Shown: piece after piece, positions 34,417 through 50,396 of the stretch
How positions within the stretch are numbered: position 1 is the first letter of the stretch
Layout of the letters: each line of letters opens with the position of its first letter
DNA from: Burkholderiaceae bacterium
GTDB taxonomy: Bacteria > Pseudomonadota > Gammaproteobacteria > Burkholderiales > Rhodocyclaceae
Assembly (NCBI GenBank): GCA_021738065.1
Contig: JAIPCT010000011.1
Location: forward strand, 1 to 60,266
Reading direction: 5' to 3'
DNA length: 60,266 nt
Notes under the pieces: generated by a model
Database searches by the model: none
Told to the model about the DNA's origin: nothing
The model's input: the letters and a program-made list of their open reading frames with translations, nothing else
Program-made: the position numbers and the translations under genes

Positions 34417-34664
34417 ATCTCGACAAACTGATCAAGATGGCCAACCAGATCGGCGATTTTTTTGAAGCCATGCCGGATCGCCAGCAGGCTGTCATTGATG
34501 TTGCCGGACATCTGCAACGCACTTGGGAACCGCGCATGCGCGAGCAGCTTTGCGCGGCAATGGATGGTTCCGCCGCGGCCCGGCTCAAACCCCTGGTGCG
34601 CGATGCGTTAATCTCGCTGAATAAACCGGCCGCCCCGGTTGGAAAATCAACGTCAGGCGGCTAG
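34413..34664 (+). CDS. fdsD: Formate dehydrogenase delta subunit
   Basis: 83 residues starting MNLDKLIKMANQIGDFFEAMPDR, the FdsD family opening, with HLQRTWEPRMREQL in the middle. FdsD is needed for a stable active enzyme in related bacteria. The start ATG 34413 overlaps the fdhD stop by 4 nt. Last gene of the operon; convergent with the DUF938 gene, whose last base pairs overlap its stop. Confidence 0.93.
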   Translation: MNLDKLIKMANQIGDFFEAMPDRQQAVIDVAGHLQRTWEPRMREQLCAAMDGSAAARLKPLVRDALISLNKPAAPVGKSTSGG

Positions 34665-35251: not shown

Positions 35252-35255
35252 GCGT

Positions 35256-36449
35256 CTAGTAGCTGCGCCGAAAAGTGCTTGCCGGGTCATGGGCCGGAGG
35301 CCTGTCGCCGGGTTGCGTCGCCCGCGCCTCGGCGACCTGTTGCGCCACATTGTCGCCGGTCAGACTGCCGAGGAAGGCAAGCAGTGCCCTTTTTTCCTGC
35401 GTCGTGAGGCCGAGCGGCCGCAGCAAGGGGTCTTTCTGCGGATTGTCGATGCCGCCGCCATCGTAGAACTCGATCACGTCGTCCAGCGTGGCCAGCGATC
35501 CGTCATGCATGTAGGGAGATGTGAGCGCCACGTTACGCAGAATCGGCGTGCGATAAGCCCAGGAGTCGGCGGGATCGAGCGTTACCTCGTAGCGTCCGAC
35601 GTCGGGCAGGGGCTGCTCGAACGCGTTCAGCGCCTTGTCTTCTACATCCACAAAAACACCGGGCGCGAGCTGCACCCTATGTTTTTTTGCCGGGCCCATG
35701 CTGCGTGCGTAGCCGATTCCGCTGTTGTGAAATCGGTTGTCCGAAAACAAAGCCTGCTTGTCGCCAACAAGATGGCAACTGCTGCATCCGGCCTTGCCGC
35801 TGAAAAGTTCGAAACCGGCTTTTTCTTCCGCCGTCAGCGCGCCTTGTTCCTTGCCGAAGTGCCAGCGATCGAAGCGGGAATTGGCGGAGACCAGCGTTCG
35901 CTGGTAGCTGGCGAGTGCCTGGCCGACAGTCTGCATGTCCGGACCGCGCCCGTTGAACGCTTTTTCGAAGCGCCCGGCATATTCCGGCAGGACCTTGATT
36001 TTTTCGATCACATAGCCGATCGAGGGGTTGGCCATTTCATTGCCGGCAAGCAGAGGGCCCCAGGCCTGATTCTCCAGACTGAACTCGCGGCCATCATGGA
36101 ACAGCTGCTCGACGTAGGCCACGTTGTATATCGTCGGCGAGTTGCGGCGAATGCTTTGGCCTTCCAGGCCGATTGCCGTACCCAGCTCGTGCGAAGTAAA
36201 GCCCTGCTCAGGCACATGACACATCGCGCACGACAGGGTGTTGTTGTGCGAAAGACGGCGATCCATGAACAGCGTTCGGCCCAGGTCGATACGGGCCCGG
36301 GTCAGGGGGCTGTCGGGCGGAATGGGCAAAGCGGGCAGGCCCAATGGCGGCGCGATGAGCAGCGCTTCGGCGGCGGGAGCGAAGGCTTGCTCACAGGCGG
36401 GCAAGGTCAATGCACAGAGAACCAGCAGAGCGCTGGTCAGCTGTTTCAT
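35256..36449 (-). CDS. MauG-like di-heme cytochrome c peroxidase lipoprotein
   Basis: 397 residues. N-terminal lipobox ALTLPAC (Cys19) predicts a lipoprotein facing the periplasm. Two heme-c sites: CAMCH at 74-78 and CSSCH at 222-226, the spacing of the CcpA/MauG family. The protein begins with the typical ARIDLGRTLFMDRRLSHNNTLSC. In methanethiol-degrading Hyphomicrobium a MauG-domain gene accompanies mtoX. It could mature the MtoX active site or remove the hydrogen peroxide that MtoX produces. It overlaps the SCO gene by 4 nt. Confidence 0.9.
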   Translation of the reverse strand: MKQLTSALLVLCALTLPACEQAFAPAAEALLIAPPLGLPALPIPPDSPLTRARIDLGRTLFMDRRLSHNNTLSCAMCHVPEQGFTSHELGTAIGLEGQSIRRNSPTIYNVAYVEQLFHDGREFSLENQAWGPLLAGNEMANPSIGYVIEKIKVLPEYAGRFEKAFNGRGPDMQTVGQALASYQRTLVSANSRFDRWHFGKEQGALTAEEKAGFELFSGKAGCSSCHLVGDKQALFSDNRFHNSGIGYARSMGPAKKHRVQLAPGVFVDVEDKALNAFEQPLPDVGRYEVTLDPADSWAYRTPILRNVALTSPYMHDGSLATLDDVIEFYDGGGIDNPQKDPLLRPLGLTTQEKRALLAFLGSLTGDNVAQQVAEARATQPGDRPPAHDPASTFRRSY

Positions 36450-37141
36450 TTCAATTGGGTCCCGTCTTCAATCAGCAGGGTCTTGATGTCGTTCAGCACC
36501 ATGGCGGGCAACAGGTAGTCGGTTGTGTAGATCTCGCGAACTTTACTCTGCCGGTCGATCAGGAACACCTTCAGCACATGGCTGTAGCTGCCTATCGGTT
36601 TTCCCGTTTGCTTGTCCACATCGACGCCGACATCCTGGCCGAAGCCATTCAGAATCGGCACCAATTCACGTCGCGAGCGCGTCGTCAGAAAATCCCAGTC
36701 GAGATGTTGCGCCGTGTCAGCGTGGCCATTTCCGTACAGTGCGAGTACCTGCGGCGTGTCGCGCACCGGGTCGAAGGAGAGGCTGACGAAGCGAACCTTG
36801 CCTTTTGTCTGGGGCAGTTTCTCGAGTTCGGATTTGACCAGATGCATGACGGTGAGGGCGTAGGGGCAGCCGTTCGGGTCGGCGCACGATGAGTACATGA
36901 AGGCAAGCAGGGTGACTTTACCCTGGGTGTATCGCGAGAGTTTCCGGCGCTTGCCGCTGGCGTCGAGAACCCAGCCTTCGCTTGCCGGCTGAATCCGATG
37001 GAGCTTGTAGGTGCCGGCTGCGGGCGGTTCGAAATCCATCACCGGCGCCGCATGGCTGCCGGTGCACAGCAGGAAGACAAGAAAAAAACACCCGCCTCCG
37101 TTGAGGAAGCGGGTGATGCGCCACAGTGAGGAGAAACGCAT
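36446..37141 (-). CDS. SCO1/SenC-like thioredoxin-fold protein with CX5C motif
   Basis: 231 residues with a signal sequence (about 14-31). SCO fold elements are recognisable: KVTLLAFMYSSC, RFVSLSFDPVRDTPQVL and SYSHVLKVFLIDRQSKV with the metal histidine. The metal cysteines are Cys86 and Cys92 in CADPNGC, spacing CX5C rather than the usual CX3C of the second SCO gene in this window (46577-47164). It sits between mtoX (4 nt gap) and the MauG gene, exactly the order reported around mtoX in Hyphomicrobium, so it probably delivers copper to MtoX. Confidence 0.88.
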   Translation of the reverse strand: MRFSSLWRITRFLNGGGCFFLVFLLCTGSHAAPVMDFEPPAAGTYKLHRIQPASEGWVLDASGKRRKLSRYTQGKVTLLAFMYSSCADPNGCPYALTVMHLVKSELEKLPQTKGKVRFVSLSFDPVRDTPQVLALYGNGHADTAQHLDWDFLTTRSRRELVPILNGFGQDVGVDVDKQTGKPIGSYSHVLKVFLIDRQSKVREIYTTDYLLPAMVLNDIKTLLIEDGTQLK

Positions 37142-37144: not shown

Positions 37145-38488
37145 CTATTGTTTCCTGGCGAGCAGGGCCGGGAGGTTCTGCGCCACGTCCAGTGGCTGAA
37201 GCGTGGACAAATCCCGGGCCTGGAACTTCATGTGATGGGCGCGGCCGAGTTTCTCTTTGTAAAAATCGATCTCGAACGCCAGCTTGAGATCCTTGCCGTC
37301 CCAGTTGTACAGCTTGAGATATTGCTCATCGTCCTTGGCTTTCTTGTCCCAGTTGCCCAGCAGTGACGAAGTGAAATACACCCGCTTGCCATCGTAGCTC
37401 TGCGACACCATGTTGACCTGCGATCCGATCTTCTTGGTAAAGACTTCCTTCGGCGCCATCGGGTCGGACATGTCCCAGTACCGGGCCGTGCCGTCCATGA
37501 AGGTATTTATCCACATGCCTTTGGCGTCGGCCGTGATGCTGATATCCACGGGCAGCGGAATCTTGGCCGGATCGCCGATGGTGGCGACGTCCCTGGCTTG
37601 CCATTCGCCCTTGGCATCCTGTTTGTAGACCCATATCTTCGACGTCAGCGCCGTCGTGGTCACGGCCCAGTTGTCACCCTTGTTCCAGGACCAGCGCACT
37701 TCCAGCGGCGCTCCCGGAGTCTGGAAGACTTTCAGCGGTTTCATGGTCTTCATGTCCCACATGACCGAAGTGTTGCCGAAACGCTTCATCGCTTCCGGAT
37801 CCTTGACCATCTTGCCGAGATCCATCATGTAGTTGTTCCATCCGGTGAAGGACGAAGTCAGGAACACGTTTTTCTGCGGATTGATGCCGACATCGTAGCC
37901 ATAGCCGTCGCCACCGTTGGTCTTGGGCATTTGCTCATGGGAAACATACTCACCCTTGTTGTTGTAGACCACAACGCCGGTTTCACCGCCATGGTCCTTC
38001 TTGTTGGAAAGCGGGGTGATCAGCATGCGGCCGGGCATGGCGATGAACGAGTGCGGCCCGACAAAGCCGGTCTTCTCGACAAAGTCAGTGATGGTCCTGG
38101 TCAGCTTCGGTTTGGCCGGGTTGGTGCCGATGTCGAAAACAAAAATCTTGTTCGAGTCCAGCGCACCGCCCCAGAGAAAGCGGCGGTCATCCGACAGGCC
38201 GACGTGGTGCACTTCGCCGCGGCCGCCGAGCGAGAGCTTGTGGATGACCTTGCCGTAGGTCTTGGATTTTGGATTGACATCCACCGTCACGAGTTTGTCC
38301 GAGCCATCGCCGATGCCTTTGACACCCAGCGTCCAGACATAGACCAGGTCTTCCTGCCCCTTGATCAGCGGTGTGAAGGGCGAACAACTGGTTTCGTCGG
38401 CGAATGCGGGCGCAGCAGCCAGGACCGCCGACAGCGCCAGCGTCAAGGCCACATTGCGGGCCAGGTTCGTCGTTTTGATCATCTTCAT
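37145..38488 (-). CDS. mtoX: Methanethiol oxidase MtoX (SBP56/selenium-binding protein family), exported
   Basis: 447 residues with a signal peptide ending AFADE near residue 32. SBP56 features: Cys35 in TSCSPF, GEVHHVGLSDDRRFLWGGALDSNKIFVFDIG, FVGPHSF, GWNNYMMDLGKMVKDP and the C-terminal LGRAHHMKFQARDL. The clustered histidines are expected to bind copper. The family oxidises methanethiol to formaldehyde, hydrogen sulfide and hydrogen peroxide. First gene of mtoX-sco-mauG(-DUF938), leftward, and divergent from a histidine kinase. It sits inside a block with formaldehyde and formate oxidation genes, which supports the enzymatic call over a generic selenium-binding label. Confidence 0.88.
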   Translation of the reverse strand: MKMIKTTNLARNVALTLALSAVLAAAPAFADETSCSPFTPLIKGQEDLVYVWTLGVKGIGDGSDKLVTVDVNPKSKTYGKVIHKLSLGGRGEVHHVGLSDDRRFLWGGALDSNKIFVFDIGTNPAKPKLTRTITDFVEKTGFVGPHSFIAMPGRMLITPLSNKKDHGGETGVVVYNNKGEYVSHEQMPKTNGGDGYGYDVGINPQKNVFLTSSFTGWNNYMMDLGKMVKDPEAMKRFGNTSVMWDMKTMKPLKVFQTPGAPLEVRWSWNKGDNWAVTTTALTSKIWVYKQDAKGEWQARDVATIGDPAKIPLPVDISITADAKGMWINTFMDGTARYWDMSDPMAPKEVFTKKIGSQVNMVSQSYDGKRVYFTSSLLGNWDKKAKDDEQYLKLYNWDGKDLKLAFEIDFYKEKLGRAHHMKFQARDLSTLQPLDVAQNLPALLARKQ

Positions 38489-38707
38489 GTGGGTTCTCTC
38501 CTGATAGGTTGGTGGTATTGTTGCGGGCCCGTCTTCGGCAGTGCGGGTTCGGAGTTCGTGGCTGTGGTGAATTGCTGCACTTCCGGTCTCAACTTATTAT
38601 TCTTCAAGCAATTTAGCAGAGCTGGCGGCGGCGGCAATTGGGGTGATTACCTATACGCACGCTGATTGATCCTGATTGACCCTGAGGTTTCCCCTGCTAG
38701 AGTTGCG
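38489..38707. promoter_or_regulatory. Divergent control region mtoX / sensor kinase
   Basis: 219 nt holding promoters for both directions. The shared 19-bp site is at 38635-38653. The AT-rich stretch AACTTATTATTCTTCAAGCAATTTAG (split here by reading 38591-38616) is a plausible promoter core toward mtoX, but I cannot assign exact -35/-10 hexamers. Confidence 0.55.
38635..38653 (+). promoter_or_regulatory. Shared operator site 1 (mtoX / kinase intergenic)
   Basis: CAATTGGGGTGATTACCTA preceded by GG. It lies 147 nt before mtoX and 55 nt before the kinase start. Matches sites 2 (41671-41689, minus) and 3 (50251-50269). Confidence 0.7.
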
Positions 38708-40036
38708 ATGCACAATGAATGGAGCGACGCGGGCCAAATGTTTCCCGGCAACGACTTGATGTGGCTGGCACTGGTGATCCTCGGCGGGACGTTGACCGCC
38801 GCGCTGATCGCATTGGTGGTGGTGCTGGCGCGCTTGCAGGAGGCCGAAAGGAAAATCAGCGAGAAAGAATCCAACCACGAGAGCATTCTCGACCGGCTGC
38901 AGGAAAACGAATACCGCCTGCGCACGATCATCGAATCCGAGCCGGAGTGCGTGAAACTTCAGGCCGAGGATGGCACGGTTCTGGAAATCAACCCGGCCGG
39001 CCTGCGGCTGGTCGACGCCAATCAGCCGGCCGACATCATCGGCAGGAAGATCTACACCGTCGTCGCTCCCGAGTACATCGATATCTACCGCGAGAACATG
39101 CGCCGCGTCTTTGCCGGCGAGGCCATGGTCTACGAGTTCCGCGCAATCACCCTGAAGAACCGCATTGCCTGGATGGAAACCCATGCCGCGCCGCTGCGCG
39201 ATGCGCGAGGCAATATCTACGCCCTGCTCGGCATCACCCGCGACATCACCGAACACAAGCAGTCGGAAGAGCAGGCGCGGCGGCACCAGACCGAACTGGC
39301 GCGGGTGGCACGCCTGTCGACCATGGGCGAGATGGCGACCGGCATTGCACATGAACTGAACCAACCGCTGTCGGCGATCGCCAATTTTGCCCGCGGCTGC
39401 ATTCGTCGTCTGCGTTCCGGCGACATGAGTCCCGAGGACCTGGCCGAGCCGCTTGAAGAGGTGTGCGAACAGGCCGAGCGCGCCGGTGAGATCCTTCGTC
39501 ACGTGCGCGACTTCGTGCGCAAAAGCGAGTTGCAGTTGAGGCCGGTTGATGTGAACCAGATCGTGCGGTCCGTCGTCAAATTTACCGACCACGAAGCGCG
39601 GCAGCACCGGACGATGGTCCGACTGCATCTCGGCGCGGATTTGCCGAAAGTCCAGGCGGATTCAATCATGATCGAACAGGTCATCTGCAACCTGGTGCGA
39701 AATGCCTGCGAGGCAATGGTCGAAGCCGATTCGCCGCGACGCGAGGTCAGCATTCACACACGCGGCTTCGGCAACGACGAAGTCGAGATCGAGATCGGCG
39801 ATACCGGTCCCGGCATTGACGGGACAGTCATCGATCAGGTATTCGACCAGTTCTTCACCACCAAACCGGATGGAGTGGGCATGGGCCTGTCGATCAGCCG
39901 CTCGATCGTGGAATCGCACGGTGGCCGGGTGCGGGCGGAGTCGGGCGGCAGCGGCGGCACCGTGGTGCGCTTCACCCTGAAAACGGGCGGACAGCCGGAA
40001 AGAAACCGTGAACGAGCCGACAGTATTCATAGTTGA
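38708..40036 (+). CDS. PAS-domain sensor histidine kinase
   Basis: 442 residues from ATG 38708; MFPGND (ATG at 38738) is an alternative start. One membrane helix (about 17-42), a short coiled coil, a PAS domain (about 65-185) ending in the PAC-like YALLGITRDITEHKQ, HisKA with phospho-acceptor His215 in GIAHELNQPLSAI, and an HATPase domain with NLVRNACEAM, GDTGPGI and GVGMGLSISRSIVESHGG. The regulator gene starts 29 nt before its stop. FixL/TodS-like organisation with a cytoplasmic PAS suggests sensing of a small molecule, oxygen or redox state. Divergent from mtoX, so its signal may be a methanethiol-pathway compound. Confidence 0.9.
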   Translation: MHNEWSDAGQMFPGNDLMWLALVILGGTLTAALIALVVVLARLQEAERKISEKESNHESILDRLQENEYRLRTIIESEPECVKLQAEDGTVLEINPAGLRLVDANQPADIIGRKIYTVVAPEYIDIYRENMRRVFAGEAMVYEFRAITLKNRIAWMETHAAPLRDARGNIYALLGITRDITEHKQSEEQARRHQTELARVARLSTMGEMATGIAHELNQPLSAIANFARGCIRRLRSGDMSPEDLAEPLEEVCEQAERAGEILRHVRDFVRKSELQLRPVDVNQIVRSVVKFTDHEARQHRTMVRLHLGADLPKVQADSIMIEQVICNLVRNACEAMVEADSPRREVSIHTRGFGNDEVEIEIGDTGPGIDGTVIDQVFDQFFTTKPDGVGMGLSISRSIVESHGGRVRAESGGSGGTVVRFTLKTGGQPERNRERADSIHS

Positions 40037-40616
40037 CGACGACCAGGCAGTCGCCCGCAGCCTGCGCTGGTTGATCGAATCCGTTCGTCTCAAGGTGGAA
40101 ACCTTTTCCTCGGCCCAGGCCTTCATCGACGGCTACGACGCTGGAAAGCCCGGTTGTCTGGTGCTCGACGTGCGCATGCCGGGAATGAGCGGCCTCGATC
40201 TGCAGGAGCGCCTGGCAGCGCAGCGCATCCATGTGCCGATCATTTTCATCACCGGCCACGGCGATGTTCAGATGGCGGTACGCGCGGTCCAGGCCGGCGC
40301 CTTTGATTTTGTCGAAAAGCCGTTCAACGATCAGGATCTGCTCGACCGTATTCAGAAGGCGATTGCGCTGGATGCCGACCAGCGCGGCAAGGAGGCATTG
40401 CGCGTCCAGTTGCGAAGCCTGTTTGCCGGCTTGACGCCGCGTGAGCGGGAAGTGCTGGATCTGGTAGTCGAGGGATTGTCCAACAAGGCGATCGCCAATT
40501 CGCTCGGCTTGAGTGCGAAAACGGTGGAAGTCCATCGGGCCAAGGTGATGGACAAGATGCAGGCGCGCTCAGTCTCGGACCTGGTGAAACTGTCCATTCA
40601 GAACCAGGCCGGATAA
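40008..40616 (+). CDS. FixJ/NarL-type response regulator
   Basis: 202 residues from GTG 40008, preceded by GGAAAG. Receiver domain with phospho-acceptor Asp54 in CLVLDVRMPGMSG, Thr and Lys switch residues in FITGHGDVQMAV and FVEKPFND, and a C-terminal LuxR-type HTH (LTPREREVLDLVVEGLSNKAIANSLGLSAKTVEVHRAKVMDKM). Translationally coupled to the kinase. It is the best local candidate to bind the shared 19-bp sites, since LuxR-type HTH domains bind dyads with half-sites of this size. Confidence 0.92.
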   Translation: MNEPTVFIVDDDQAVARSLRWLIESVRLKVETFSSAQAFIDGYDAGKPGCLVLDVRMPGMSGLDLQERLAAQRIHVPIIFITGHGDVQMAVRAVQAGAFDFVEKPFNDQDLLDRIQKAIALDADQRGKEALRVQLRSLFAGLTPREREVLDLVVEGLSNKAIANSLGLSAKTVEVHRAKVMDKMQARSVSDLVKLSIQNQAG

Positions 40617-40659
40617 TAGCGTCGCGGACCGCGCCGGCACATCTGCTTGCGCCTGGATT

Positions 40660-40678
40660 CCGGCCTAGCCTCGGCCGG
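40660..40678. terminator. Weak hairpin between convergent regulator and ctaB genes
   Basis: CCGGCC-N7-GGCCGG between the two stop codons; no T-run on either side, so a terminator role is uncertain. Confidence 0.3.
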
Positions 40679-40681
40679 TGG

Positions 40682-41578
40682 CTATGGAAGCAGGTAGTGA
40701 TCGACCAGCAGCGCGGAGAACAGCAGTGACAGGTAGAGGATAGAGAAGCGAAAGGTTTTCTGTGCGACAAGGTCGCTGTAGTTGCGCCAAATCTGCCAGG
40801 CGTGGCTGATGAACAATGCATTGAGCACTGCTGCCGCTGCAAGATAGAAACCGCCGCTCATGCCGATGAAGAACGGCATCAAGGTCACGGCGGCAAGGCC
40901 CAGCGTATAGACAAAGATGCATCGCTGGGTGTATTCGCGGCCATGCACGACCGGCAACATCGGCAGGTTCGCGGCCGCATATTCGTCGGCCCGGTAGAGC
41001 GCCAGCGACCAGAAATGCGGCGGCGTCCAGACGAAGATGATGAGGAACAGCAGCCAGGCCTGCTCCGGCGTCTGTCCGGTCACCGCCGCCCAGCCAAGCA
41101 CCGGCGGCATCGCACCCGAAGCGCCGCCGATGACGATGTTTTGCGGTGTCAGCGGTTTCAGGATAACTGTGTAGATCACCGCATAGCCGATGAAGGTCGC
41201 CAGCGTCAGCCACATCGTCAGGGGATTCACGAAGACATGCAGCAAGGCGAGCCCGCTGCCGCCGATGATTCCGGAGACGAAAAAAGTCTCGATTGTGTTG
41301 ACCTCGCCGCGCGGCAGTGGTCGGCCCTGGGTACGCGCCATGATGGCGTCGATTTTTTGTTCAATCAGGCAGTTCACCGCAGCAGCCGCACCGGCAACCA
41401 GGGCAATGCCGAGCGTGGCGGCGACGAGTATTTGCATCGGTACCGCGCCAGGAGTCGCCAGTAGCATGCCGATCACGGCGCAGAACACGATCAGGGAGAT
41501 GACGCGAGGCTTGGTCAGGCGCAGATAGCGCTGCATGCGTTCGCCCATGTCGGGTCGGGCGAGAATCGTATCGCTCAT
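40682..41578 (-). CDS. ctaB: Heme O synthase (protoheme IX farnesyltransferase)
   Basis: 298 residues from ATG 41578 with AGAGGG upstream. UbiA-family membrane enzyme with the prenyl-diphosphate motif [21 protein letters not shown] near residues 75-95 and the second, YKRPLTPQN-like [16 protein letters not shown] and [13 protein letters not shown] elements. It converts heme B to heme O. It is divergent from the CuA/heme-copper subunit genes, suggesting that that enzyme uses heme O or A. The region between them holds operator site 2. Confidence 0.93.
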
Positions 41579-41645
41579 GGCATTCCCTCTGCTGGAAGTC
41601 GTCTTTGATGGGTGGTGCCAGTCTGCTTTTCCCGAGCGCATCGAT

Positions 41646-41689
41646 CAATTGGGAATAACCTTTGTGATACTAGGTAATTATCCTAATTG
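41646..41689. promoter_or_regulatory. Imperfect palindrome enclosing operator site 2
   Basis: Left arm CAATTGGGAATAACC (41646-41660) pairs with right arm GGTAATTATCCTAATTG (41673-41689). The right arm read on the minus strand is the full 19-bp site; the left arm is a degenerate second copy in the other direction, giving two facing sites. Confidence 0.65.
41671..41689 (-). promoter_or_regulatory. Shared operator site 2 (ctaB / CuA subunit intergenic)
   Basis: Minus strand CAATTAGGATAATTACCTA, preceded by GG. It is 93 nt before ctaB and about 140 nt before the CuA subunit gene. Confidence 0.7.
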
Positions 41690-41828
41690 CCAAGCGCGGT
41701 CCTGCCGCCTATCTTTCGTCCATAACAAATGAGTGGGTATCGGCAAAGCGGCGTTAGCCGCCCGGACCGACCCGTTTGCGCGACAAGACTGACCGGTCGC
41801 GTCACTAGAAACTTTAGGAGGTGGACAC

Positions 41829-42392
41829 ATGCTTGATTTTCTTTTCAGCGGCTGGGGCGCATTCTGGATGACGCTCTTCATGCTGGTGCCGTTCGCGGCG
41901 ATATTCTTTTACGTTGTGCATAGGAAATCCGTCACCGATTCCGGCCCGAGCACAACTGCCGGGGCAAAAATGTCCCGGCTGGAAGGTATCTGGCTGACCG
42001 TGGTGTTCGTAATTTTCGTGGGTGTCAACCTCGGCAGCCTGAAGTACATGCCGACGATGAAGGCCGCGCATGCCGCAACCAGCAATCAGCAGTTGCATGA
42101 AATCGACTTCTCGGCAACTTCCTGGGCCTACGATATCTCGAACCGGCAGATCGAGGCCGGCAGCACCGTGCGCTTTTCCGGCAAGAGTAAGGACACCATG
42201 CACGGATTCGCCGTGTATCACCCCGATGGCAGGATGCTATTCACCATGATGCTGATGCCGGGGCTGAAGAATCCCACCACGCTGGTCCATACGTTCAATG
42301 AGCCGGGCACGTACAAGGTGCGCTGCCTGGAATACTGCGGCATTGCGCATCACGCCATGCAGGACGAGTTGGTCGTTGTTAAGCGCAGCTGA
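41829..42392 (+). CDS. CuA-containing subunit II of a heme-copper oxidase/NO reductase
   Basis: 187 residues, short for a subunit II. Two N-terminal membrane segments (about 8-28 and 55-74), then a cupredoxin domain with a complete CuA site: DTMHGFAVY provides the first His and CLEYCGIAHHAM the two Cys, Glu, His and Met. Electrons therefore come from cytochrome c or another periplasmic donor. It is followed by subunit I after 28 nt. In Nitrosomonas the comparable pair is called norSY and sits with senC; this cluster has the same neighbours. Confidence 0.88.
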   Translation: MLDFLFSGWGAFWMTLFMLVPFAAIFFYVVHRKSVTDSGPSTTAGAKMSRLEGIWLTVVFVIFVGVNLGSLKYMPTMKAAHAATSNQQLHEIDFSATSWAYDISNRQIEAGSTVRFSGKSKDTMHGFAVYHPDGRMLFTMMLMPGLKNPTTLVHTFNEPGTYKVRCLEYCGIAHHAMQDELVVVKRS

Positions 42393-42420
42393 CCGCAACC
42401 GATACGGAGGAATGCCCATC

Positions 42421-43953
42421 ATGAGTATCGCCAGCACAATCGTTCAAAACACACCCATATTCGGCAAAATGTTCAGTGTCGACAAGAGCACCGGTCTGGA
42501 AGAAATCAACGCCTGGCCGGCGCTGATGATCATGGCCTCTTTCGTCTGGCTGGCGATCGCCGGCCTGCTCGGTTTCGTTATGCCGGTCACCCAGCTATTC
42601 GACATGGATACCGGCCTGTTCTACACCACCTTGACCTTGCATGGCGCGGCACTGGCTTTCCCCTTCTCCTTTCAACTAATGATGGGCGTCGGCTTGCATC
42701 GCTCGGGCGGCTGCGTCGGAAAGCCGGTCACCGGCTGGTTGCCGGCACTGGCTTTCATCACCATGAATGTGGGGGCCGGGCTGCTCACGGTCGCGGTGTT
42801 GATGGGCCTGAAGGTCAGCCTGATGGTGATGTACCCGCTACCGCTGGTCGGCGCGCAGATGGGCATCTGGAGCATGAATTCGGTGGTGCTTGGATTTACC
42901 GGCATTTACCTGGTTCTGGCCTGCATGATCCTGTGCTATCCAATTCTGATGCTGAAGATGACGTTCTTCGGCAAGAAGCGCCCCGATCTTGTGCTGGCGG
43001 AACGCTCGCTCAACGATCCGGGCATGCTGGGCATGATTCTGTCGGCCATGACGCTACTGGTCGCAGGCACGCCACTGGTCATTGTCGGCACCACGGTGAT
43101 GGCTGCGCTCTACGGCATCATTCCGATGTCGATGGCGGCCTGGGCGACGGAGCCGGTGGTATTTCAGTACGCCTTCTTCATCTTCGCCCATAACCTGATG
43201 GAAGCCATGGCGCTGATGGTGATGAGCGCGATGTATGCGACGCTGCCGCTGTACCTGGCCGACGGCACGCGCAAGCTTTTCAGCAACAAACTGGCCAATC
43301 TGGCGCTGTGGATCCTGTTGCTGACATCGGTCACTTCCTTCCTGCACCACTTCATCACGCTGTACCCCAACCAGCCAGCCGGTCTTTCCTACTGGGGCAA
43401 CATCATGAGCTGGGGCACCGGCATCGGCGCCGCGATCAGCATCTTCACCGTGCTCGCCACGATCTGGCAGCATGGCTTGCGCGCCGAGCCCGGCATCATG
43501 GCGGTACTGGTGGGCTGGGTGCTGTACATCCTCGACGGAGCCAGCGCCATGGTCACGTCGAACATCGCCTGGTCGTATCAGTTGCACGGCACCATGTGGC
43601 AAAGCGGCCATACCATGACGGTGATCCTGTCGATGTCCATCATGTGGATGGGCGTCCTCTATCATCACTATCCGGTGCTTACCGGGCGCAAACTCGATCC
43701 GATGCTGGGTAGCTGGTTTGTCCGCCTCTTCGTTGTCGGCGGTCTGGGTGCGGCGATTTCGATGCTGGCCGGAGGTGCCGCCGGCATGCCGCGGCGCTTC
43801 GCCGCCTGGAACCAGGAGGGCTGGATGGTGTATGGCAATCTCACCTTTTTCTTCGGCGCGATTCTGGGTGCGTCCTTTTTGGTCTATGCCTATAGCCTGC
43901 TGAAATCCCGCGAGATCAGTTCCCCGCTGGGCCAGCAGGTGGCAGCGGCCTAG
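42421..43953 (+). CDS. Heme-copper subunit I, nitric-oxide-reductase-like (sNOR candidate)
   Basis: 510 residues, about 12 helices; ATG 42421 has GGAGG 10 nt upstream, ATG 42412 would be too close. Heme/copper residues: His74 in LTLHGAAL (low-spin heme), His257 with Glu261 in FAHNLMEA (copper/iron B site), the His309-His310 pair in FLHHF, His389 and His397 in LHGTMWQSGH. Helix VI has H-x3-E like NO reductase where oxidases have H-x3-Y, and the helix VII tyrosine of cbb3 oxidases is a serine. Two residues after His397, where bis-His enzymes have the low-spin ligand, this protein has Met399. Reaction is probably 2 NO to N2O, with oxygen reduction possible. Confidence 0.75.
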   Translation: MSIASTIVQNTPIFGKMFSVDKSTGLEEINAWPALMIMASFVWLAIAGLLGFVMPVTQLFDMDTGLFYTTLTLHGAALAFPFSFQLMMGVGLHRSGGCVGKPVTGWLPALAFITMNVGAGLLTVAVLMGLKVSLMVMYPLPLVGAQMGIWSMNSVVLGFTGIYLVLACMILCYPILMLKMTFFGKKRPDLVLAERSLNDPGMLGMILSAMTLLVAGTPLVIVGTTVMAALYGIIPMSMAAWATEPVVFQYAFFIFAHNLMEAMALMVMSAMYATLPLYLADGTRKLFSNKLANLALWILLLTSVTSFLHHFITLYPNQPAGLSYWGNIMSWGTGIGAAISIFTVLATIWQHGLRAEPGIMAVLVGWVLYILDGASAMVTSNIAWSYQLHGTMWQSGHTMTVILSMSIMWMGVLYHHYPVLTGRKLDPMLGSWFVRLFVVGGLGAAISMLAGGAAGMPRRFAAWNQEGWMVYGNLTFFFGAILGASFLVYAYSLLKSREISSPLGQQVAAA

Positions 43954-43967
43954 TCGTCCGCTGGCGC

Positions 43968-44000
43968 AACGGGGCGTCCACCAGCGGTGGACGCCCCGTT
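43968..44000 (+). terminator. Long perfect hairpin after subunit I
   Basis: AACGGGGCGTCCACC (43968-43982) pairs perfectly with 43986-44000 around AGC. The following GTCTTTC is only weakly T-rich, so this may act as a 3'-end stabiliser or partial terminator before the copper ATPase gene. Confidence 0.65.
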
Positions 44001-44076
44001 GTCTTTCGGGCAACCTGAAGGCAGGGTCGGCAAGGAGTTGGAGCGCCGATACGGACTGGACTGAAGAAGGGTCGTC

Positions 44077-46452
44077 ATGATTTGCAAGCTTTGTGGCCTG
44101 CCCACGCCCATGCCGCCCTTGCAGGCCGATGGCCACGACTTTTGCTGCCACGGCTGCCGCGAGGTCTATAGAAGCTTCGGCGAAGCGGTGTTCGCCACCG
44201 AGCGCGAAGCGACGCCCGAAGCCGCCGCGCCTCTCAATGGCAAGGAAGCCTATCTCTGGATCGACGGGATGCATTGTGCCTCCTGCGAGTTTCTGATCAC
44301 GAAGATTGCTGCCAGAACCCACGGCATTTTCACTGCGGTATCGAGCTACGCCACTTCGACGGCGAAGATCATCTATGACCCGGCGCTGATTCGTGAGTCG
44401 GAACTGCCGGCGGTCTTCGCCCAGTCCGGCTATCGGGCGAGACTGCGCGGCGAGGCAGCGCCGGATTATGACGAACGTCAGGATTTGCTTCGGTTGCTGA
44501 CGGGCGGCAGTCTGGCTGCAACCGTGATGATGCTGTCCATGCTTTTCATCTATCCGATCCATGCCGGCCTCGCCGTTCCCGGCGATTTCGATGCCATCCG
44601 CTGGGTGGCCTTCGATGTGACGCCCAAGGCCTTGTTCGTACTGTGCACGATTCTGGTTTTCTATGTCGGCTTGCCGATACTGCGTGGCGCCTGGACGGGC
44701 ATCCGGGTCGGCATGCTGAACATGGACAGCCTGCTCGCCCTGTCGATACTCTCGACCTACGGCTACAGCGTCATTCAGTTGTTCCGCGATCCGCTGGATC
44801 TGTATTTCGAAGTGGCGGGCACTTTGGTCGCGGTGATTACCATAGGCCGCTTTCTCGAGCGGGACGCGAAACTGAGCGCCACCCGCGAGCTCAACAGCAT
44901 CATGCAGGCGTGGTCGCCGCAAGCCTGCGTGCAGCGAGACGGCACCTACCTGATGTGCGCGATCGACGAAGTTCTGCCCGGCGATCGCATATTCGTTCGT
45001 TCCGGGGAAACGGTTCCGGTCGATGGCGATGTCGTCGACGGTGAAGGCGCGGTCGACGAGTCGCTGTTGACCGGGGAGCCCTACCCGGTGTCTCGCGGCG
45101 TCGGGGAAAAAGTGCTTGGAGGCAGCGTTCTGCTCGAAGGCAAGCTGGAAATCGAAACCGGTCCGGTGGTCGAGAGCCGGATGGCGAACCTGGCGCAGAT
45201 ACTGTGGAATACGCAAAGCGCCACCGCCGGCATGCAGAGTCGGGTGGACCGTATTTCGCGAAAATTTGTTCCGGCCGTTCTCCTGCTTGCAAGCCTGGTC
45301 GGCTTCGGCTTTCTGATCAGTGGTGCATCTTTCGAAAAGGCATTGCTGGCAAGCCTGGCGACCCTGATCGTTTCCTGTCCCTGCACCTTCGGTCTGGCGA
45401 TCCCGCTGACCACTGCCGCAGCCATCGCATCGGCGCTGCGTCGCGGCATCATCGTCACCAGTGCCGATCTTTTCGAGAGAGCACCGCGCATCGACATTGT
45501 CGCGATCGACAAGACCGGCACCTTGTCGACCGGCAACATGGCCGTCGTCAAGGTCATCGGCCCGCCCGAAGTCATCTCTCGCGCAGCCGCGGTCGAGCGT
45601 GCTTCGAACCACCCTGTAGCGCGGGCGATCGCCCGATTGGATAAGCAGCGGACTGCCAGCGATACCGAGATCCATCCAGGGCGCGGTGCGCTGGCCAATG
45701 TAGGTGGCAGACGCGTGGCCGTCGGTAGCCGGGCACTGTTTGCCACGCTGGGCTGGTCAATTCCGGGACCGCTGGCGATGCAGGCCGCAAACGGCGCAGC
45801 CGGCGACAGCGTGATTTCCTATGTTGGTTGGGAGGGCAGCGCTCAGGGCGCCATTGTTAGCCGCGACCAGTCGCGGCCCGAATGGGAACGGGTGGTCGAA
45901 CGCCTGCGGCGCGACAGTCGTGTCGTGTTGCTGACCGGTGCGGAGCATCCGAACGGGTACGAGGCGCTGGTCGATGAAGTCCATGCCGGAGTTCCTCCCG
46001 AGGCAAAGGCGGCAGTCATCCGACGCCTGAAGGCTGGCGGCCGGGTGGCCATGATCGGTGACGGCAGCAATGATGCACCGGCACTTGCCGCAGCCGATCT
46101 GGGCATTGCCTTCGGCGCTCCCACGTCCCTTGCGGCCGAGGCTGCCGACATGGTGATTCCGGGTGAAAGACTGGAGAGCGTGTTCGACGCCTTCGAATTG
46201 ATCGACACCACCCGCCGTCGCATTCGCCAGAACCTTGGCTGGGCGCTGGCATACAACCTCGTGGCGATTCCGCTGGCAATGAGCGGACTGCTCAACCCAT
46301 TGTTTGCCGCGCTGGCGATGGCGGCGAGCAGCCTGTTGGTGGTGGTGAATGCGACGCGGCCGATCCTGCGCGACGAACCGGGCCGCCCAGCAAGGCGGGT
46401 GATGCTTCAGCCGCCAGCGGGGGATGCGCTGCGCCAGCCGCTTAAGGGATAA
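44077..46452 (+). CDS. Copper-transporting P1B-type ATPase (CtpA/FixI/CcoI-like)
   Basis: 791 residues. N-terminal FixI-type cysteine domain (CKLCGLPTPMPP, FCCHGCREVY), an HMA domain with CASC at 67-70 in GMHCASCEF, eight membrane helices, the ion-path CPC at 434-436, phosphorylation Asp478 in DKTGT, and the hinge GDGSNDAPALAAADLGIAFG. FixI/CcoI/CtpA pumps export copper for assembly of oxidase metal centres rather than for resistance. Position right after the heme-copper subunits and before SenC fits delivery of copper to the CuA and binuclear sites. Confidence 0.9.
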   Translation: MICKLCGLPTPMPPLQADGHDFCCHGCREVYRSFGEAVFATEREATPEAAAPLNGKEAYLWIDGMHCASCEFLITKIAARTHGIFTAVSSYATSTAKIIYDPALIRESELPAVFAQSGYRARLRGEAAPDYDERQDLLRLLTGGSLAATVMMLSMLFIYPIHAGLAVPGDFDAIRWVAFDVTPKALFVLCTILVFYVGLPILRGAWTGIRVGMLNMDSLLALSILSTYGYSVIQLFRDPLDLYFEVAGTLVAVITIGRFLERDAKLSATRELNSIMQAWSPQACVQRDGTYLMCAIDEVLPGDRIFVRSGETVPVDGDVVDGEGAVDESLLTGEPYPVSRGVGEKVLGGSVLLEGKLEIETGPVVESRMANLAQILWNTQSATAGMQSRVDRISRKFVPAVLLLASLVGFGFLISGASFEKALLASLATLIVSCPCTFGLAIPLTTAAAIASALRRGIIVTSADLFERAPRIDIVAIDKTGTLSTGNMAVVKVIGPPEVISRAAAVERASNHPVARAIARLDKQRTASDTEIHPGRGALANVGGRRVAVGSRALFATLGWSIPGPLAMQAANGAAGDSVISYVGWEGSAQGAIVSRDQSRPEWERVVERLRRDSRVVLLTGAEHPNGYEALVDEVHAGVPPEAKAAVIRRLKAGGRVAMIGDGSNDAPALAAADLGIAFGAPTSLAAEAADMVIPGERLESVFDAFELIDTTRRRIRQNLGWALAYNLVAIPLAMSGLLNPLFAALAMAASSLLVVVNATRPILRDEPGRPARRVMLQPPAGDALRQPLKG

Positions 46453-46459
46453 CCCTTAA
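46442..46459. promoter_or_regulatory. Inverted repeat TTAAGGG-ATAA-CCCTTAA
   Basis: Perfect 7-nt arms overlapping the ATPase stop codon. AATGATCCCGATT about 11 nt downstream resembles part of operator site 3 read in reverse. Role unknown; could be a terminator stem without T-run or an internal operator before senC. Confidence 0.4.
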
Positions 46460-46576
46460 CAGGCACTGGAATGATCCCGATTCCGAGGTGTCGCACGACT
46501 GCGTATATTCGGGCCGTGCCTGCGGAATGTGGGGCTGCGTCGACAACGCTAATGAAAAGCGGAGGGATTTGACTTA

Positions 46577-47164
46577 ATGCGGGCCTTGAAGCAGAAGGTA
46601 ATCCTGTGCTGTGCGCTGCTGGCCCTGGTGGCGCCTGCGCATGCGTCCTCCGCCACCCTGACCAAGGGCGGGCAGAAGGCTGCTCTCGGCGGCGAGATAG
46701 CACTGATGGAGACGAATGGCAAAGCGTTTCGATTGAGTTCTCAACGCGGCAAGGTGGTCCTGATCTACTTCGGCTACACCAGTTGCCCCGATGTCTGTCC
46801 GACGGACATGCTGCAGTTCCGGGACGTGCTTTCCCTGCTCGGCGAACGGGCGAAGCGGGTGCTGCCGGTCTTCATTTCCCTGGATCCGGAACGAGATACA
46901 CCACAGCATCTGGCTGACTATGCCGCAGCGTTCAGCCCGGCGATTCTGCCGCTGACCGGCAGCGAAGCCCAGTTGCGCCGCGTCGCAAAAGCCTATGGCA
47001 CGCAGTTTCACTACAACGGGCGAACCGGCGGCTCGGCAAGTTACACCGTCGATCACACGGCAAATCTTTATGTTGTCGACGCTGCCGGGAAACTGGTGCG
47101 GATCATTCCCTACGGTACGCCGACAGTCGATCTGGTAAGAGCGATTGCGCCGCTGATCAGATAA
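46577..47164 (+). CDS. senC: SCO1/SenC copper chaperone
   Basis: 195 residues with a signal peptide ending near HASS (residues 22-25). Copper motif CPDVCP with Cys70 and Cys74 (CX3C) in FGYTSCPDVCPTDML, SLDPERDTPQHL and the metal His in YTVDHTANLYVVD. It loads the CuA site of subunit II. SenC beside a NorS/NorY-like pair repeats the norSY-senC layout of ammonia oxidisers. 124 nt separate it from the ATPase; 62 nt from frmA. Confidence 0.93.
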   Translation: MRALKQKVILCCALLALVAPAHASSATLTKGGQKAALGGEIALMETNGKAFRLSSQRGKVVLIYFGYTSCPDVCPTDMLQFRDVLSLLGERAKRVLPVFISLDPERDTPQHLADYAAAFSPAILPLTGSEAQLRRVAKAYGTQFHYNGRTGGSASYTVDHTANLYVVDAAGKLVRIIPYGTPTVDLVRAIAPLIR

Positions 47165-47226
47165 GTCGAAGCGAGTTCTGCCGTTTTCAGCCATAAAAAC
47201 ATAACCACAACCTACAGGAGCAAGAG

Positions 47227-48336
47227 ATGGACGTACGCGCAGCAGTGGCCCACAAGGCCGGAGCCCCCCTGACGATAGAAACGGTGCAGCTCGATGGCCC
47301 ACGCGCCGGAGAGGTCTTGGTCGAGATCAAGGCCAGTGGCGTTTGCCATACCGATGCATTTACTCTGTCCGGTGACGATCCCGAGGGCATCTTTCCCGCC
47401 ATTCTCGGTCACGAGGGCGCCGGCATCGTGGTGGAGGTGGGTGCCGGTGTGACCAGCGTCAAGCCCGGTGATCACGTCATCCCGTTGTATACCCCCGAGT
47501 GCCGGCAGTGTGAATACTGCCTGTCGCAAAAGACCAATTTATGCCAGGCGATTCGCTCGACTCAGGGTCAGGGACTCATGCCGGACGGAACCAGCCGCTT
47601 CAGCCTCGGCGGCAAGCAGGTTTTCCATTACATGGGCACGTCGACTTTCGCCAACTACTCCGTCATGCCCGAAATTTCCGTCGCCAAGATCCGGGAGGAT
47701 GCTCCCTTCGACAAGGTTTGCTACATCGGTTGCGGCGTTACCACGGGTATCGGCGCCGTCATCAATACTGCGAAAGTACAGGCGGGCGACAACGTGGTGA
47801 TCTTCGGCCTTGGCGGAATCGGTCTGAATGTCATTCAGGGTGCGCGCATGGTTGGCGCCGGCATGATCATCGGTGTCGATATCAATCCGGGGCGCAAGGC
47901 GCTGGCGGAAAAATTCGGCATGACCCACTTCGTCAATCCCAAGGAAGTCGAAGGTGACCTCGTGGCCTATCTCGTCAATCTGACCAAAGGCGGCGCCGAC
48001 CATACATTCGAGTGTGTCGGCAACGTCAAGCTCATGCGCCAGGCCCTGGAATGCTGTCACAAGGGCTGGGGCACCAGTACCATTGTCGGCGTGGCCGGTG
48101 CCGGCCAGGAGATTTCGACAAGGCCGTTCCAGTTGGTGACAGGGCGCGTCTGGAAAGGCTCCGCATTCGGCGGCGCCAGGGGGCGTACCGACGTGCCGAA
48201 GATCGTCGACTGGTATATGGAAGGCAAGATCAACATCGACGACCTGATCACGCATGTCATGCCGCTGGAGAAGATCAATGAAGCCTTTGACCTGATGCAC
48301 GAAGGCAAGTCGATCCGATCCGTCGTAACGTTCTAG
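47227..48336 (+). CDS. frmA: S-(hydroxymethyl)glutathione dehydrogenase (class III alcohol dehydrogenase)
   Basis: 369 residues. Catalytic zinc Cys40 in [10 protein letters not shown] and GHEGAGIV, structural zinc in [17 protein letters not shown], and the NAD-binding [38 protein letters not shown] is typical of the glutathione-dependent class. It oxidises hydroxymethylglutathione (formaldehyde adduct) to S-formylglutathione with NAD. CTACAGGAGCAAGAG is a strong ribosome site. Followed by fghA; with Gfa it forms the full formaldehyde route in the same block as mtoX. Confidence 0.97.
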
Positions 48337-48419
48337 GAACCAGGCCGGGCCCAATTCCGTGGCCGCTATCAAGGAGATTCGGCTGCCCCCGCAATTGACA
48401 CGGGTGGCCGAACTGAAAC

Positions 48420-49319
48420 ATGACTATCAATAAAATTTCGCAGAACAAGTGCTTTGGGGGTAGTCAGGGCGTGTATAGCCATTCCTCGCCCGAAATCGGG
48501 TGCACCATGCGCTTTGGCGTATTCATGCCGCCGCAGTCGGGCAACGGAGCGCCTCCGGTTCCGGTCCTCTATTGGCTTTCGGGCTTGACATGCACCGAGG
48601 AAAATTTTGTCCTCAAGGCAGGCGCACAACGGGTTGCCGCCGAACTGGGAATTGCGATTGTGACTCCCGACACCAGTCCGCGAGGTCTCGGCCTGCCAGG
48701 CGAAGCGGACAATTACGATTTCGGTCTGGGTGCCGGCTTCTATGTCGATGCCACCGAAGCCCCTTGGTCGCGGAACTACCGCATGTATTCCTATATCACG
48801 CAGGAACTGCCCTGGCTGATCGCCGCGAACTTTTCCGTTGATCCTTCTCGCGCGGGTATTTTTGGGCATTCAATGGGCGGCCATGGCGCGCTTACCCTGG
48901 CTTTGAGAAATCCCCAAGTTTACAAATCCGTGTCGGCATTTGCGCCAATTTGTTCACCGATGCGCTGTCCCTGGGGCGAAAAGGCGCTGAGCGGATACCT
49001 GGGCTCGAATCGAGACAAGTGGCGCGACCATGATGCGACCGCGCTGCTGGAAGCCCGAGGCTGGAAGGGACCGCCGCTTCTGGTTGACCAGGGTTCCAGG
49101 GATCAGTTTCTCGAGAGCCAGCTCATGCCGCAGTTATTGGTCGAAGCCTGCGAGCGCGCCGGAGTCGCGCTCGATCTGCGCATGCGAGAGGGCTACGATC
49201 ACAGCTATTTCTTCATCGCCAGCTTTATTGAGGATCACCTGCGGTTTCATGCACGCAATCTGCGCGGATTTGGAGCGCAGGCACCCGAGCCCACTTTGGC
49301 GGTCGGTGGTGCAGACTAG
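48420..49319 (+). CDS. fghA: S-formylglutathione hydrolase
   Basis: 299 residues. Esterase D family with LYWLSGLTCTEENF, catalytic Ser151 in GHSMGGHGAL, acid in LVDQGSRDQFL and His in MREGYDHSYFF. It releases formate and glutathione from S-formylglutathione. Formate then feeds FdsGBA encoded 20 kb upstream. The terminal 20 residues extend slightly beyond the usual family end. Convergent with gfa with a shared hairpin between. Confidence 0.95.
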   Translation: MTINKISQNKCFGGSQGVYSHSSPEIGCTMRFGVFMPPQSGNGAPPVPVLYWLSGLTCTEENFVLKAGAQRVAAELGIAIVTPDTSPRGLGLPGEADNYDFGLGAGFYVDATEAPWSRNYRMYSYITQELPWLIAANFSVDPSRAGIFGHSMGGHGALTLALRNPQVYKSVSAFAPICSPMRCPWGEKALSGYLGSNRDKWRDHDATALLEARGWKGPPLLVDQGSRDQFLESQLMPQLLVEACERAGVALDLRMREGYDHSYFFIASFIEDHLRFHARNLRGFGAQAPEPTLAVGGAD

Positions 49320-49420
49320 GTCATCGCGGGGTTCGGTCGATATCCGAGATCAATCGCTGCAATTCCGGTTTGGCTACAAATACCGGATCTCGCCATAAGC
49401 TGAAGACCTGAAAAAAACAG

Positions 49421-49455
49421 ATGACCCATCGTGCGCCTGGCGCACGATGGGTCAT
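49421..49455 (-). terminator. Terminator between fghA and gfa
   Basis: ATGACCCATCGTGCG (49421-49435) and 49441-49455 form a perfect 15-bp stem with loop CCTGG. On the minus strand it is followed by CTG and seven T, so it terminates gfa strongly; for fghA it lacks a T-run. Confidence 0.85.
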
Positions 49456-49479
49456 TGTTACGACCGTTTGCGACTTGAC

Positions 49480-50049
49480 TTATGCCGCTTTGCTTTTGGC
49501 GACGTGGGTCGCTATCGCATCCATCAGCGGTGGCGACAGGCAGTCATACGGTTCCAGTCCCAGGGATTTCAAACGTGCCCGGATGGCGGGCATTTGAGCC
49601 GGATCAGTACCTGTTTCGATGATGGACGAAACGAAGGCGGCAAACTCGGGCGGCGACCAGCCTCGAATCTCAGAGAGTTCGGTATGAACGAAATCCAGGC
49701 CATAGAAGGGGTGGGCCTTGTTTTCGATCCGGCCGAACATGTGCACACCGCAACCGGTGCAGGCATGGCGCTGGATCGCCGCGCTGGGGTCGACGATTTT
49801 CAGCTTCTCCGGATGGGCGGTGACCTTGACTTTGTCGCGGGAAACCACGGCGACCTGCGAGAACAGCGCGCCTTTCGGCTTCCAGCATTTGCTGCAACCA
49901 CAGGCATGGTTGTGCGCTGTCTGCGCGGTGATCGTCACTTCGACACGATCCGCAGGACACTTGCAGCGCAGAACTCCGCCTTCAAAACCCGGCAGCGCCG
50001 GCATTGTTCCGGTATCTATCGATGGGTGAATCGTTACATTATTGCTCAT
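49480..50049 (-). CDS. gfa: S-(hydroxymethyl)glutathione synthase (Gfa)
   Basis: 189 residues. GFA-family zinc cysteines: [29 protein letters not shown] and [13 protein letters not shown]. It is proposed to speed or channel the condensation of formaldehyde with glutathione, feeding FrmA. The start ATG 50049 has GGAGGAAACAATTC upstream. Divergent from aroC across 347 nt that hold operator site 3. Confidence 0.95.
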
Positions 50050-50396
50050 GAATTGTTTCCTCCTCCCTTATAGGGATGCGGTAGCCAAAGGACGTTTCGC
50101 CCCAGGACATTCGTATGCCATCAAGCGGGAACATAAAACCGCGCTCCCTCCTCAAGTTGCAGCGCCGACAAGGGTTCGCTCCGGTCGCGACAAGCGAATT
50201 TTTCTGCCTCCGCTTGCTTAACGGAAAATAAACCGGGGGAACTGCCCGGGCAATCGGGATGAATACCTAGTCGGATGCAGGTTGTCCCTGACGGCGGCTG
50301 TCATGGACTCCGATGGGGCGCGATGGAATATGCACGGCGAGCAACATGGTAAGCTCTTCCATTCCCTTCATTCGGCGCTTGTTTGAGTTCGCGATC
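50050..50396. promoter_or_regulatory. Divergent region gfa / aroC
   Basis: 347 nt without a supported gene. Operator site 3 is at 50251-50269, next to a CCGGG-N8-CCCGG inverted repeat (about 50232-50249). The 200 nt between the site and gfa show no recognised RNA element. Confidence 0.55.
50251..50269 (+). promoter_or_regulatory. Shared operator site 3 (gfa / aroC intergenic)
   Basis: CAATCGGGATGAATACCTA preceded by GG. It is 202 nt before gfa and 128 nt before aroC. Confidence 0.65.

Follow-up and report, generated by a model that had tools for sequence, protein, structure and literature searches.

A probable two-box operator shared by methanethiol oxidase, NOR-like oxidase and formaldehyde detoxification genes in a Sulfuritalea-like bacterium

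Do the genes for methanethiol oxidase (mtoX), for a haem-copper enzyme of the nitric oxide reductase-like (NOR-like) type and for formaldehyde detoxification belong to one regulon? The question is raised by contig JAIPCT010000011.1 of the Burkholderiaceae bacterium assembly GCA_021738065.1, the 60,266 nucleotides of which are the window analyzed here. A preliminary description had listed three near-identical 19-bp sites in the divergent intergenic regions mtoX/kinase, ctaB/cuA and gfa/aroC, had taken them for the mark of one regulon, and had named the FixJ-type response regulator encoded at 40008 as candidate binder. Conservation, co-occurrence and the promoter position of the strong matches support this regulon and enlarge it. 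It is quite probable from the sequence that the kinase-regulator pair encoded beside mtoX activates the mtoX, oxidase and gfa operons, with less certainty the sco2-adhC-fghA operon, and also itself through operators composed of two boxes.

From 19-bp sites to two-box operators

The three sites are located at 38635 on the plus strand, 41689 to 41671 on the minus strand and 50251 on the plus strand, exactly as reported, each with GG directly upstream, and no other match to the first site with up to 3 mismatches occurs in the window. The mean number of such matches in 100 dinucleotide shuffles of the window was 0.00, and the bacterium's own genome (3.4 Mb in 148 contigs) contained one additional match with 3 mismatches, in contig C142. 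A motif-free test found 122 21-mers of the window with at least 2 partners within 3 mismatches, compared to 0 to 3 in five first-order resamplings. This result is less striking because the window contains other repeats besides the three sites, and recurrence alone is therefore no proof of them. The sites are real and beyond chance, and the proof is their promoter position together with their conservation across genomes.

Each 19-bp site belongs to a larger operator, of which it forms the stronger half; the preliminary description had missed both the second half and the −10-like elements. The orientation of the sites is constant along mtoX, cuA and gfa, in reverse to the way in which they had been written. 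When 46 sites were stacked along their targets, box A (CAATCAGGGACAACCT-like) came first, followed after about 9 bp by box B (TAGGTAATYAYCCYAATTGYC, the reported site reversed) and after about 18 bp more by a −10-like hexamer. Box A is a diverged inverted copy of box B, so that the two boxes are mutually inverted. The hexamer was sought 36 to 42 bases from the start of box B, and the best one begins 38 to 39 bases from the first T of this box in 37 of 41 sites, a count that has no null model beside it. If the hexamer is a −10 element, box B would be centered near −41 and box A near −68, and this geometry would be that of an activator replacing the −35 contact. FixJ activates at fixK from two boxes near −41 and −68, an arrangement which the operators of the window resemble.

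There are also −10-like elements on the far sides. The motif TGYTARAGT is common on the kinase side to most of 16 kinase promoters, and a weaker CAGACT or TAGACT occurs in most of 19 ctaB sides. The elements of the window on these two sides are 27 to 29 bases away from the center of box A, as are the target-side hexamers from the center of box B. Because the far-side elements mirror the spacing of the target-side hexamers, the mtoX/kinase and the ctaB/cuA operators look bidirectional.

A degenerate fourth copy of the operator, absent from the preliminary description, is located at 46442-46509, 5' of sco2-adhC-fghA. This arrangement is common to 9 genomes, upstream of sco2 or adhC, with the sco2 promoters of L034 and L045 only loosely similar. 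The A-box core AGGGAYAACCY is present at the sco2-adhC-fghA and the gfa promoters, and these two matches in the window are by themselves not above chance. The sco2-adhC-fghA operon is a probable, not a certain, further member of the regulon.

Conservation, specificity and co-occurrence

With up to 2 mismatches, a degenerate form of the 19-mer matched in 21 of 61 genomes (the own genome and 60 relatives), 15 of these within the genus, compared to 3 matches in all and none in the genus for the reversed 19-mer as control; outside the genus, the number of matches (six) does not rise above this background. The weak matches L043, L048, L049, L050 (own contig C142), L051 (own contig C75) and L052 were judged to be chance after inspection of their neighbors. 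A matrix derived from the three window sites was applied to loci annotated with the proteins of the window and found sites upstream of cuA, upstream of gfa, and between the kinase gene and mtoX, the DUF938 gene or another gene. The scores were mostly between 19 and 35 at these loci, and the best score among about 1,900 pieces of 350 bp taken at random from the window (2,000 draws minus those near the sites) was 12.4, with a 99th percentile of 10.8.

A sequence-only operator profile, R1, was built from 41 sites. Duplicate genome copies (for instance, L053, which equals G001), truncated kinase starts at contig ends and the weak match L219 were dropped before the counts. In the 31 genomes of the genus, R1 gave 37 matches at E ≤ 1.3e-7, with the next best match at 0.02. 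These were positioned at gfa (12), at cuA (10), between mtoX and the kinase gene (5), between the DUF938 and kinase genes (6, one cut by a contig end), at mtoX alone (2), at the kinase gene alone (1) and at a contig edge in G022 (1, without an assignable target). Eleven further genomes with the regulator contributed 19 matches at E ≤ 3.3e-7, 8 at cuA, 7 at the kinase gene, 4 at gfa and none elsewhere. Among these 56 strong matches, 41 had trained the model (32 of the 37 within the genus and 9 of the 19 outside) and 15 were independent (5 and 10, respectively, the latter being 4 at gfa and 6 at the kinase gene); 14 of the 15 were at gfa, the kinase gene or the DUF938 gene. No match at E ≤ 0.001 occurred in 398 other genomes of the order, so that the own genome was the only one of 399 drawn evenly, in a scan with stricter filters, 12 candidates scored per genome and the regulator content of the 398 genomes unchecked.

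Neither many matches in unrelated genes nor a lack of conservation upstream of mtoX, both named beforehand as arguments against a regulon, was seen: 36 of the 37 strong matches within the genus and 19 of 19 outside were at the same promoters, and 7 of the 9 mtoX genes of the genus possess the operator. The two without it (G012 and G019) also lack a regulator orthologue. Concerning the third site, gfa held as a target and aroC did not, because, among the annotated gfa loci, aroC was detected next to the operator in no more than three, those of the window, L039 and L199 (L038 comprises only about 0.5 kb at this place). A DUF3617-type gene seems to be opposite the kinase gene across the operator in L058, L059, L072 and L081, with the family checked in L072 only.

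An orthologue of the regulator (at least 80% identity) was present in 12 of the 31 genomes of the genus. The operator, as found by R1, was present in all 12 of these compared to 2 of the 19 without the orthologue (Fisher, 6e-7). The gfa gene was found in 11 of 12 and 1 of 19 genomes, respectively, and carried the operator in all 12 genomes in which it was found. Oxidase subunit I was present in 10 of 12 versus 0 of 19 (E ≤ 1e-100; an eleventh genome has a fragment), and adhC in 9 of 12 versus 0 of 19 (E ≤ 1e-180; a tenth genome has a fragment at a contig edge). The mtoX gene, in 7 of 12 versus 2 of 19 genomes, is an accessory member of the regulon. Where the two genes are apart, as in G025 and G022, mtoX and the kinase gene each have an operator of their own; the contig end in G022 overlaps the start of the kinase contig. 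Outside the genus, L078 (42-4981, Burkholderiales) contains an adhC-gfa-fghA cluster (55 to 63% identity) divergent from the same kinase-regulator pair and about 1 kb off, which is a second link to formaldehyde.

In eight relatives (Burkholderiales, Burkholderiaceae, Ideonella and L075, Betaproteobacteria), the regulator has 71 to 78% identity, and the cuA promoter contains a CTAGGAANNANYCTAGTTG-like box; the −10-like element that follows it has, as judged by eye, the offset of the other promoters. For the recognition helix, the 7 aligned regulators of these relatives have TVEFHRA, and 22 of 22 in the Rhodocyclales set have TVEVHRA. L087 and L094, two further Rhodocyclales, encode a regulator with 60 to 63% identity and its kinase beside mtoX, with box-B-like sequences visible by eye; the three-site matrix scored 6.2 and 4.0 there, within the null. 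The neighbors of distant regulator homologues (L083, L105 and L092) gave no clue to the signal.

Proposed circuit and competing explanations

Boxes, spacing, conservation, co-occurrence and specificity can be read from the sequences themselves, and the binding, activation, transcription starts and signal that would go with them are predicted as follows. The PAS kinase would phosphorylate the FixJ/StyR-type regulator, dimers of which would bind to box A near −68 and, near −41, to box B at the position of the absent −35 site, and recruit RNA polymerase to the −10-like hexamer. The targets switched on in this way would be the mtoX-sco-mauG-DUF938 and CuA/NOR-like oxidase operons, gfa and probably also sco2-adhC-fghA. 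With inverted boxes and another −10-like element on the far side, the same DNA may also drive the kinase-regulator operon, as autoregulation, and ctaB. Production of formaldehyde from methanethiol would be coupled in this way to its removal and to the copper and haem supply of the oxidase. Methanethiol, formaldehyde or one of their products is the most likely signal, and a cell meeting either compound would most likely activate these enzymes with feedback on the sensor. It is tentatively suggested, as a possibility that should not be given too much weight, that the NOR-like enzyme under this circuit serves C1 and methyl-sulfur metabolism besides or instead of denitrification, and that operator and regulator co-evolved between Rhodocyclales and Burkholderiales. 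The enzyme may then, for example, act as terminal electron acceptor or protect copper enzymes.

Several observations weigh against this circuit or reduce the force of the evidence. Orthologous promoters share ancestry, most R1 matches trained the model, and the co-occurrence is partly linkage, which weakens this test because physical linkage to the regulator gene is frequent for the oxidase genes, adhC and gfa. Both genomes of the genus with the operator but without the regulator are fragmented assemblies: in G026 (90% complete, 570 contigs), gfa has the operator and no regulator orthologue was found, and in G024 (74% complete), the site is at a contig edge. G016, also without the orthologue, has one match with 2 mismatches to the looser 19-mer, and mtoX of L121 is beside a regulator fragment and has no operator. 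The cuA operator of G022 is weak (R1 E of 0.225), the kinase-side site has a low three-site matrix score in L065, L071 and L073 and is found by R1 only in the genome of L065, and R1 fails to detect the boxes of sco2-adhC-fghA, where box B differs. With 2 mismatches, the pattern of the changed operator gave 9 matches in the eight relatives compared to 15 for the reversed control; position (8 of the 9 are at cuA) and not number is therefore the evidence for it. Since the helix change is one event and L094 possesses TVEV yet a different box, the co-divergence of operator and helix is suggestive only.

A signal other than a C1 compound needs to be considered. If the circuit responded to nitric oxide (NO) or nitrosative stress, the NOR-like enzyme would reduce NO, AdhC would act as S-nitrosoglutathione (GSNO) reductase, and mtoX would be a late recruit. 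Among the targets, the oxidase operon is very constant, and no other was found with the changed operator in the eight Burkholderiales-type genomes. Glu takes the place of the oxidase tyrosine in 25 of 25 subunit I sequences compared, and class III alcohol dehydrogenase (ADH) reduces GSNO. A response to NO would account for the oxidase and AdhC but not for gfa or mtoX: the gfa product acts on formaldehyde and its gene carries the operator wherever it was found in the genus, and the adhC-gfa-fghA cluster of L078 is about 1 kb away from the kinase gene. Moreover, according to excerpts of the papers, to which all statements on numbered sources here are limited, MtoX produces formaldehyde (PMC5739008) and sNOR-type enzymes may be oxygen reductases (PMC6967387). 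An NO signal is unlikely, albeit worth keeping in mind. The mode of action may also be different, with a regulator that represses, or that represses the kinase/ctaB side while activating elsewhere, as might be suspected from operators between divergent promoters and from RfdRS, a presumed repressor of adhI in Rhodobacter sphaeroides (PMC4776306). Box B in the place of the −35 site and the near-fixed distance to the −10-like element in non-homologous promoters are nevertheless the usual geometry of an activator, and repression is improbable.

Further FixJ-type homologues with 44 to 57% identity are encoded in these genomes, and binding by the neighboring regulator is a prediction, so that another DNA-binding protein might use the operators. 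The 12 of 12 co-occurrence, the operator at the kinase-regulator genes and the parallel change of operator and helix favor the regulator at 40008, as originally proposed, and leave another binder very improbable. The chance that the sites are a dispersed repeat or fortuitous similarity with no regulatory role is negligible. An abundant dispersed 21-mer does exist in the genome and other repeats in the window, but the genome-wide scans contradict this explanation, as do the promoter position of the strong matches, their spacing to the −10-like element, their conservation across genera and the absence of a strong match from the 398 other genomes of the order, in the scan described above.

Genes of the locus and related systems

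The features of the locus are listed in Table 1. The listed start of the kinase gene is TTG 38666, the conserved one ATG 38738. The kinase probably starts at the latter; TTG 38666 was rejected since box A falls in the stretch following it, and kinase distances computed from this codon are therefore artefacts. Subunit I has the motif H-N-x-M-E in 25 of 25 sequences, with the Glu aligned to the Tyr of H-x3-Y in 2yev, and a Protein Data Bank search with this subunit gave one weak relative. Glu at this position is found in NO reductases, and CuA-containing NOR-like enzymes (sNOR/NorSY) are defined by a subunit I without the His-Tyr pair but with Glu, and by CuA in subunit II. In genomes without mtoX at this place, the DUF938 gene adjoins the operator; this and its position at the end of the mtoX operon suggest a role of the putative methyltransferase in methyl-sulfur metabolism.

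Table 1. Genes, boxes and −10-like elements of the locus (window coordinates)
Feature	Position	Strand	Remark
DUF938 putative methyltransferase, end of mtoX operon	34661..35350	-	
MauG/MbnH-like di-haem protein in mtoX operon	35256..36449	-	PF03150; below TIGR04039 cut-off
SCO1/SenC protein in mtoX operon	36446..37141	-	
mtoX, methanethiol oxidase	37145..38488	-	NF052453, 735 bits, above cut-off of 650
Putative −10-like element TAAATT toward mtoX	38610..38615	-	Sequence and spacing
Box B, mtoX/kinase operator	38633..38653	-	First reported site; along mtoX TAGGTAATCACCCCAATTGCC
Box A, mtoX/kinase operator	38663..38678	-	
Putative −10-like element TAGAGT toward kinase	38698..38703	+	Kept in most of 16 kinase promoters
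PAS sensor histidine kinase	38738..40036	+	Hydrophobic N-terminal stretch, probable membrane anchor
FixJ/StyR-type response regulator, proposed binder	40008..40616	+	Receiver and GerE/LuxR helix-turn-helix
ctaB, haem o synthase	40682..41641	-	TIGR01473, above curated cut-off
Putative −10-like element CAGACT toward ctaB	41620..41625	-	Similar in most of 19 ctaB sides
Box A, ctaB/cuA operator	41646..41661	+	
Box B, ctaB/cuA operator	41671..41691	+	Second reported site
Putative −10-like element TATCTT toward cuA	41710..41715	+	
cuA, CuA-domain subunit II	41829..42392	+	CoxB 55.9 bits, under cut-off; C-x3-C...H...M motif by eye
Haem-copper subunit I, NOR-like type	42385..43953	+	HNLME, Glu where 2yev has Tyr
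P-type metal ATPase	44077..46452	+	CcoI/FixI-like, presumed subtype
Box A-like element, probable fourth operator	46442..46459	+	TTAAGGGATAACCCTTAA
Box B-like element, probable fourth operator	46467..46484	+	TGGAATGATCCCGATTCC
Putative −10-like element TATATT toward sco2-adhC-fghA	46504..46509	+	39-base offset as in other promoters
sco2, second SCO1/SenC protein	46577..47164	+	
adhC, S-(hydroxymethyl)glutathione dehydrogenase	47227..48336	+	TIGR02818, above curated cut-off
fghA, S-formylglutathione hydrolase-like esterase	48420..49319	+	PF00756 and gene context
gfa, S-(hydroxymethyl)glutathione synthase	49480..50049	-	TIGR02820, above curated cut-off
Putative −10-like element TATTTT toward gfa	50225..50230	-	
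Box B, gfa operator	50249..50269	-	Third reported site
Box A, gfa operator	50279..50294	-	

The regulator scored 111 bits for PF00072 and 72 bits for PF00196 and is a FixJ/NarL-type response regulator. Its best structural matches are 1yio, which we take to be StyR, and FixJ (5xso), and those of the kinase transmitter are FixL chimeras, so that the pair resembles FixL-FixJ and StyS-StyR. The pair differs from both in its operator and targets, and from FixL-FixJ in the 233 bits of the regulator compared to a cut-off of 255 bits for FixJ sensu stricto (NF006900), and in the 234.6 bits of the kinase, far under the 850 bits required for FixL sensu stricto (NF041777). A second kinase and FixJ-type regulator (44 to 47% identity) directly follow gfa in G005 (L034, 2311-5111).

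A sensor kinase with a response regulator for formaldehyde metabolism is likewise known as FlhRS, AfdRS and RfdRS in Paracoccus and Rhodobacter, and FlhRS of Paracoccus controls formaldehyde producers and consumers, including adhC and fghA homologues (PMC8879981, PMC4776306). FlhRS-type loci have an open reading frame between the kinase and regulator genes (PMC4776306), whereas these two genes overlap at 40008-40036 in the window. In the window, moreover, it is methanethiol oxidase that produces the formaldehyde, and the proposed regulon extends to an oxidase operon; the comparison is one of function. In Ruegeria pomeroyi, SCO1 and mauG genes accompany mtoX as in the window, and methanethiol induces transcription; a one-component regulator gene of the IclR family is directly upstream of mtoX, in contrast to the two-component pair of the window, and the excerpted account mentions neither a two-component system nor an operator of such a form and does not establish that the IclR protein acts on mtoX (PMC5739008). 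The mtoX gene of Hyphomicrobium denitrificans is among the thiosulfate-responsive genes, as excerpted from PMC12423496. The norSY-senC (sNOR) genes of ammonia oxidizers (PMC6967387) resemble the oxidase genes of the window in their CuA subunit, NOR-like subunit I and SCO/SenC protein, but setting and regulation differ, and the comparison is by subunit make-up. It is still debated whether sNOR-like CuA enzymes reduce NO or act as high-affinity oxidases (PMC6967387).

The open-access literature searched, which leaves out most subscription papers, yielded neither a two-component regulator of mtoX nor a site of this form, and the preliminary description had known of no such site for methanethiol or NO metabolism. 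The kind of system is familiar, and the regulon, the operator and the company of the NOR-like enzyme are new as far as seen. The circuit as read in Sulfuritalea-like bacteria is most likely one sensor-regulator pair acting through the same double DNA tag, and it suggests that mtoX can be under two-component control, in addition to the IclR-linked arrangement in Ruegeria. A NOR-like enzyme under the operator of methanethiol oxidase and formaldehyde genes has a testable setting with candidate inducers, and the R1 signature can predict which relatives possess the circuit.

The dispersed 21-mer mentioned above, AGTCGGCGCTGGCGMTACGGC, has 9 copies within 3 mismatches in the window, at 12449, 13803, 14487, 15629, 18411, 21924, 28533, 33336 and 53546, compared to 0.04 expected, and 427 copies within 2 mismatches in the own genome, with none for the reversed pattern. 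The copy at 53546 is inside leuC, and stretches like this 21-mer are located upstream of adhC or mtoX in L033, L038, L069 and L139.

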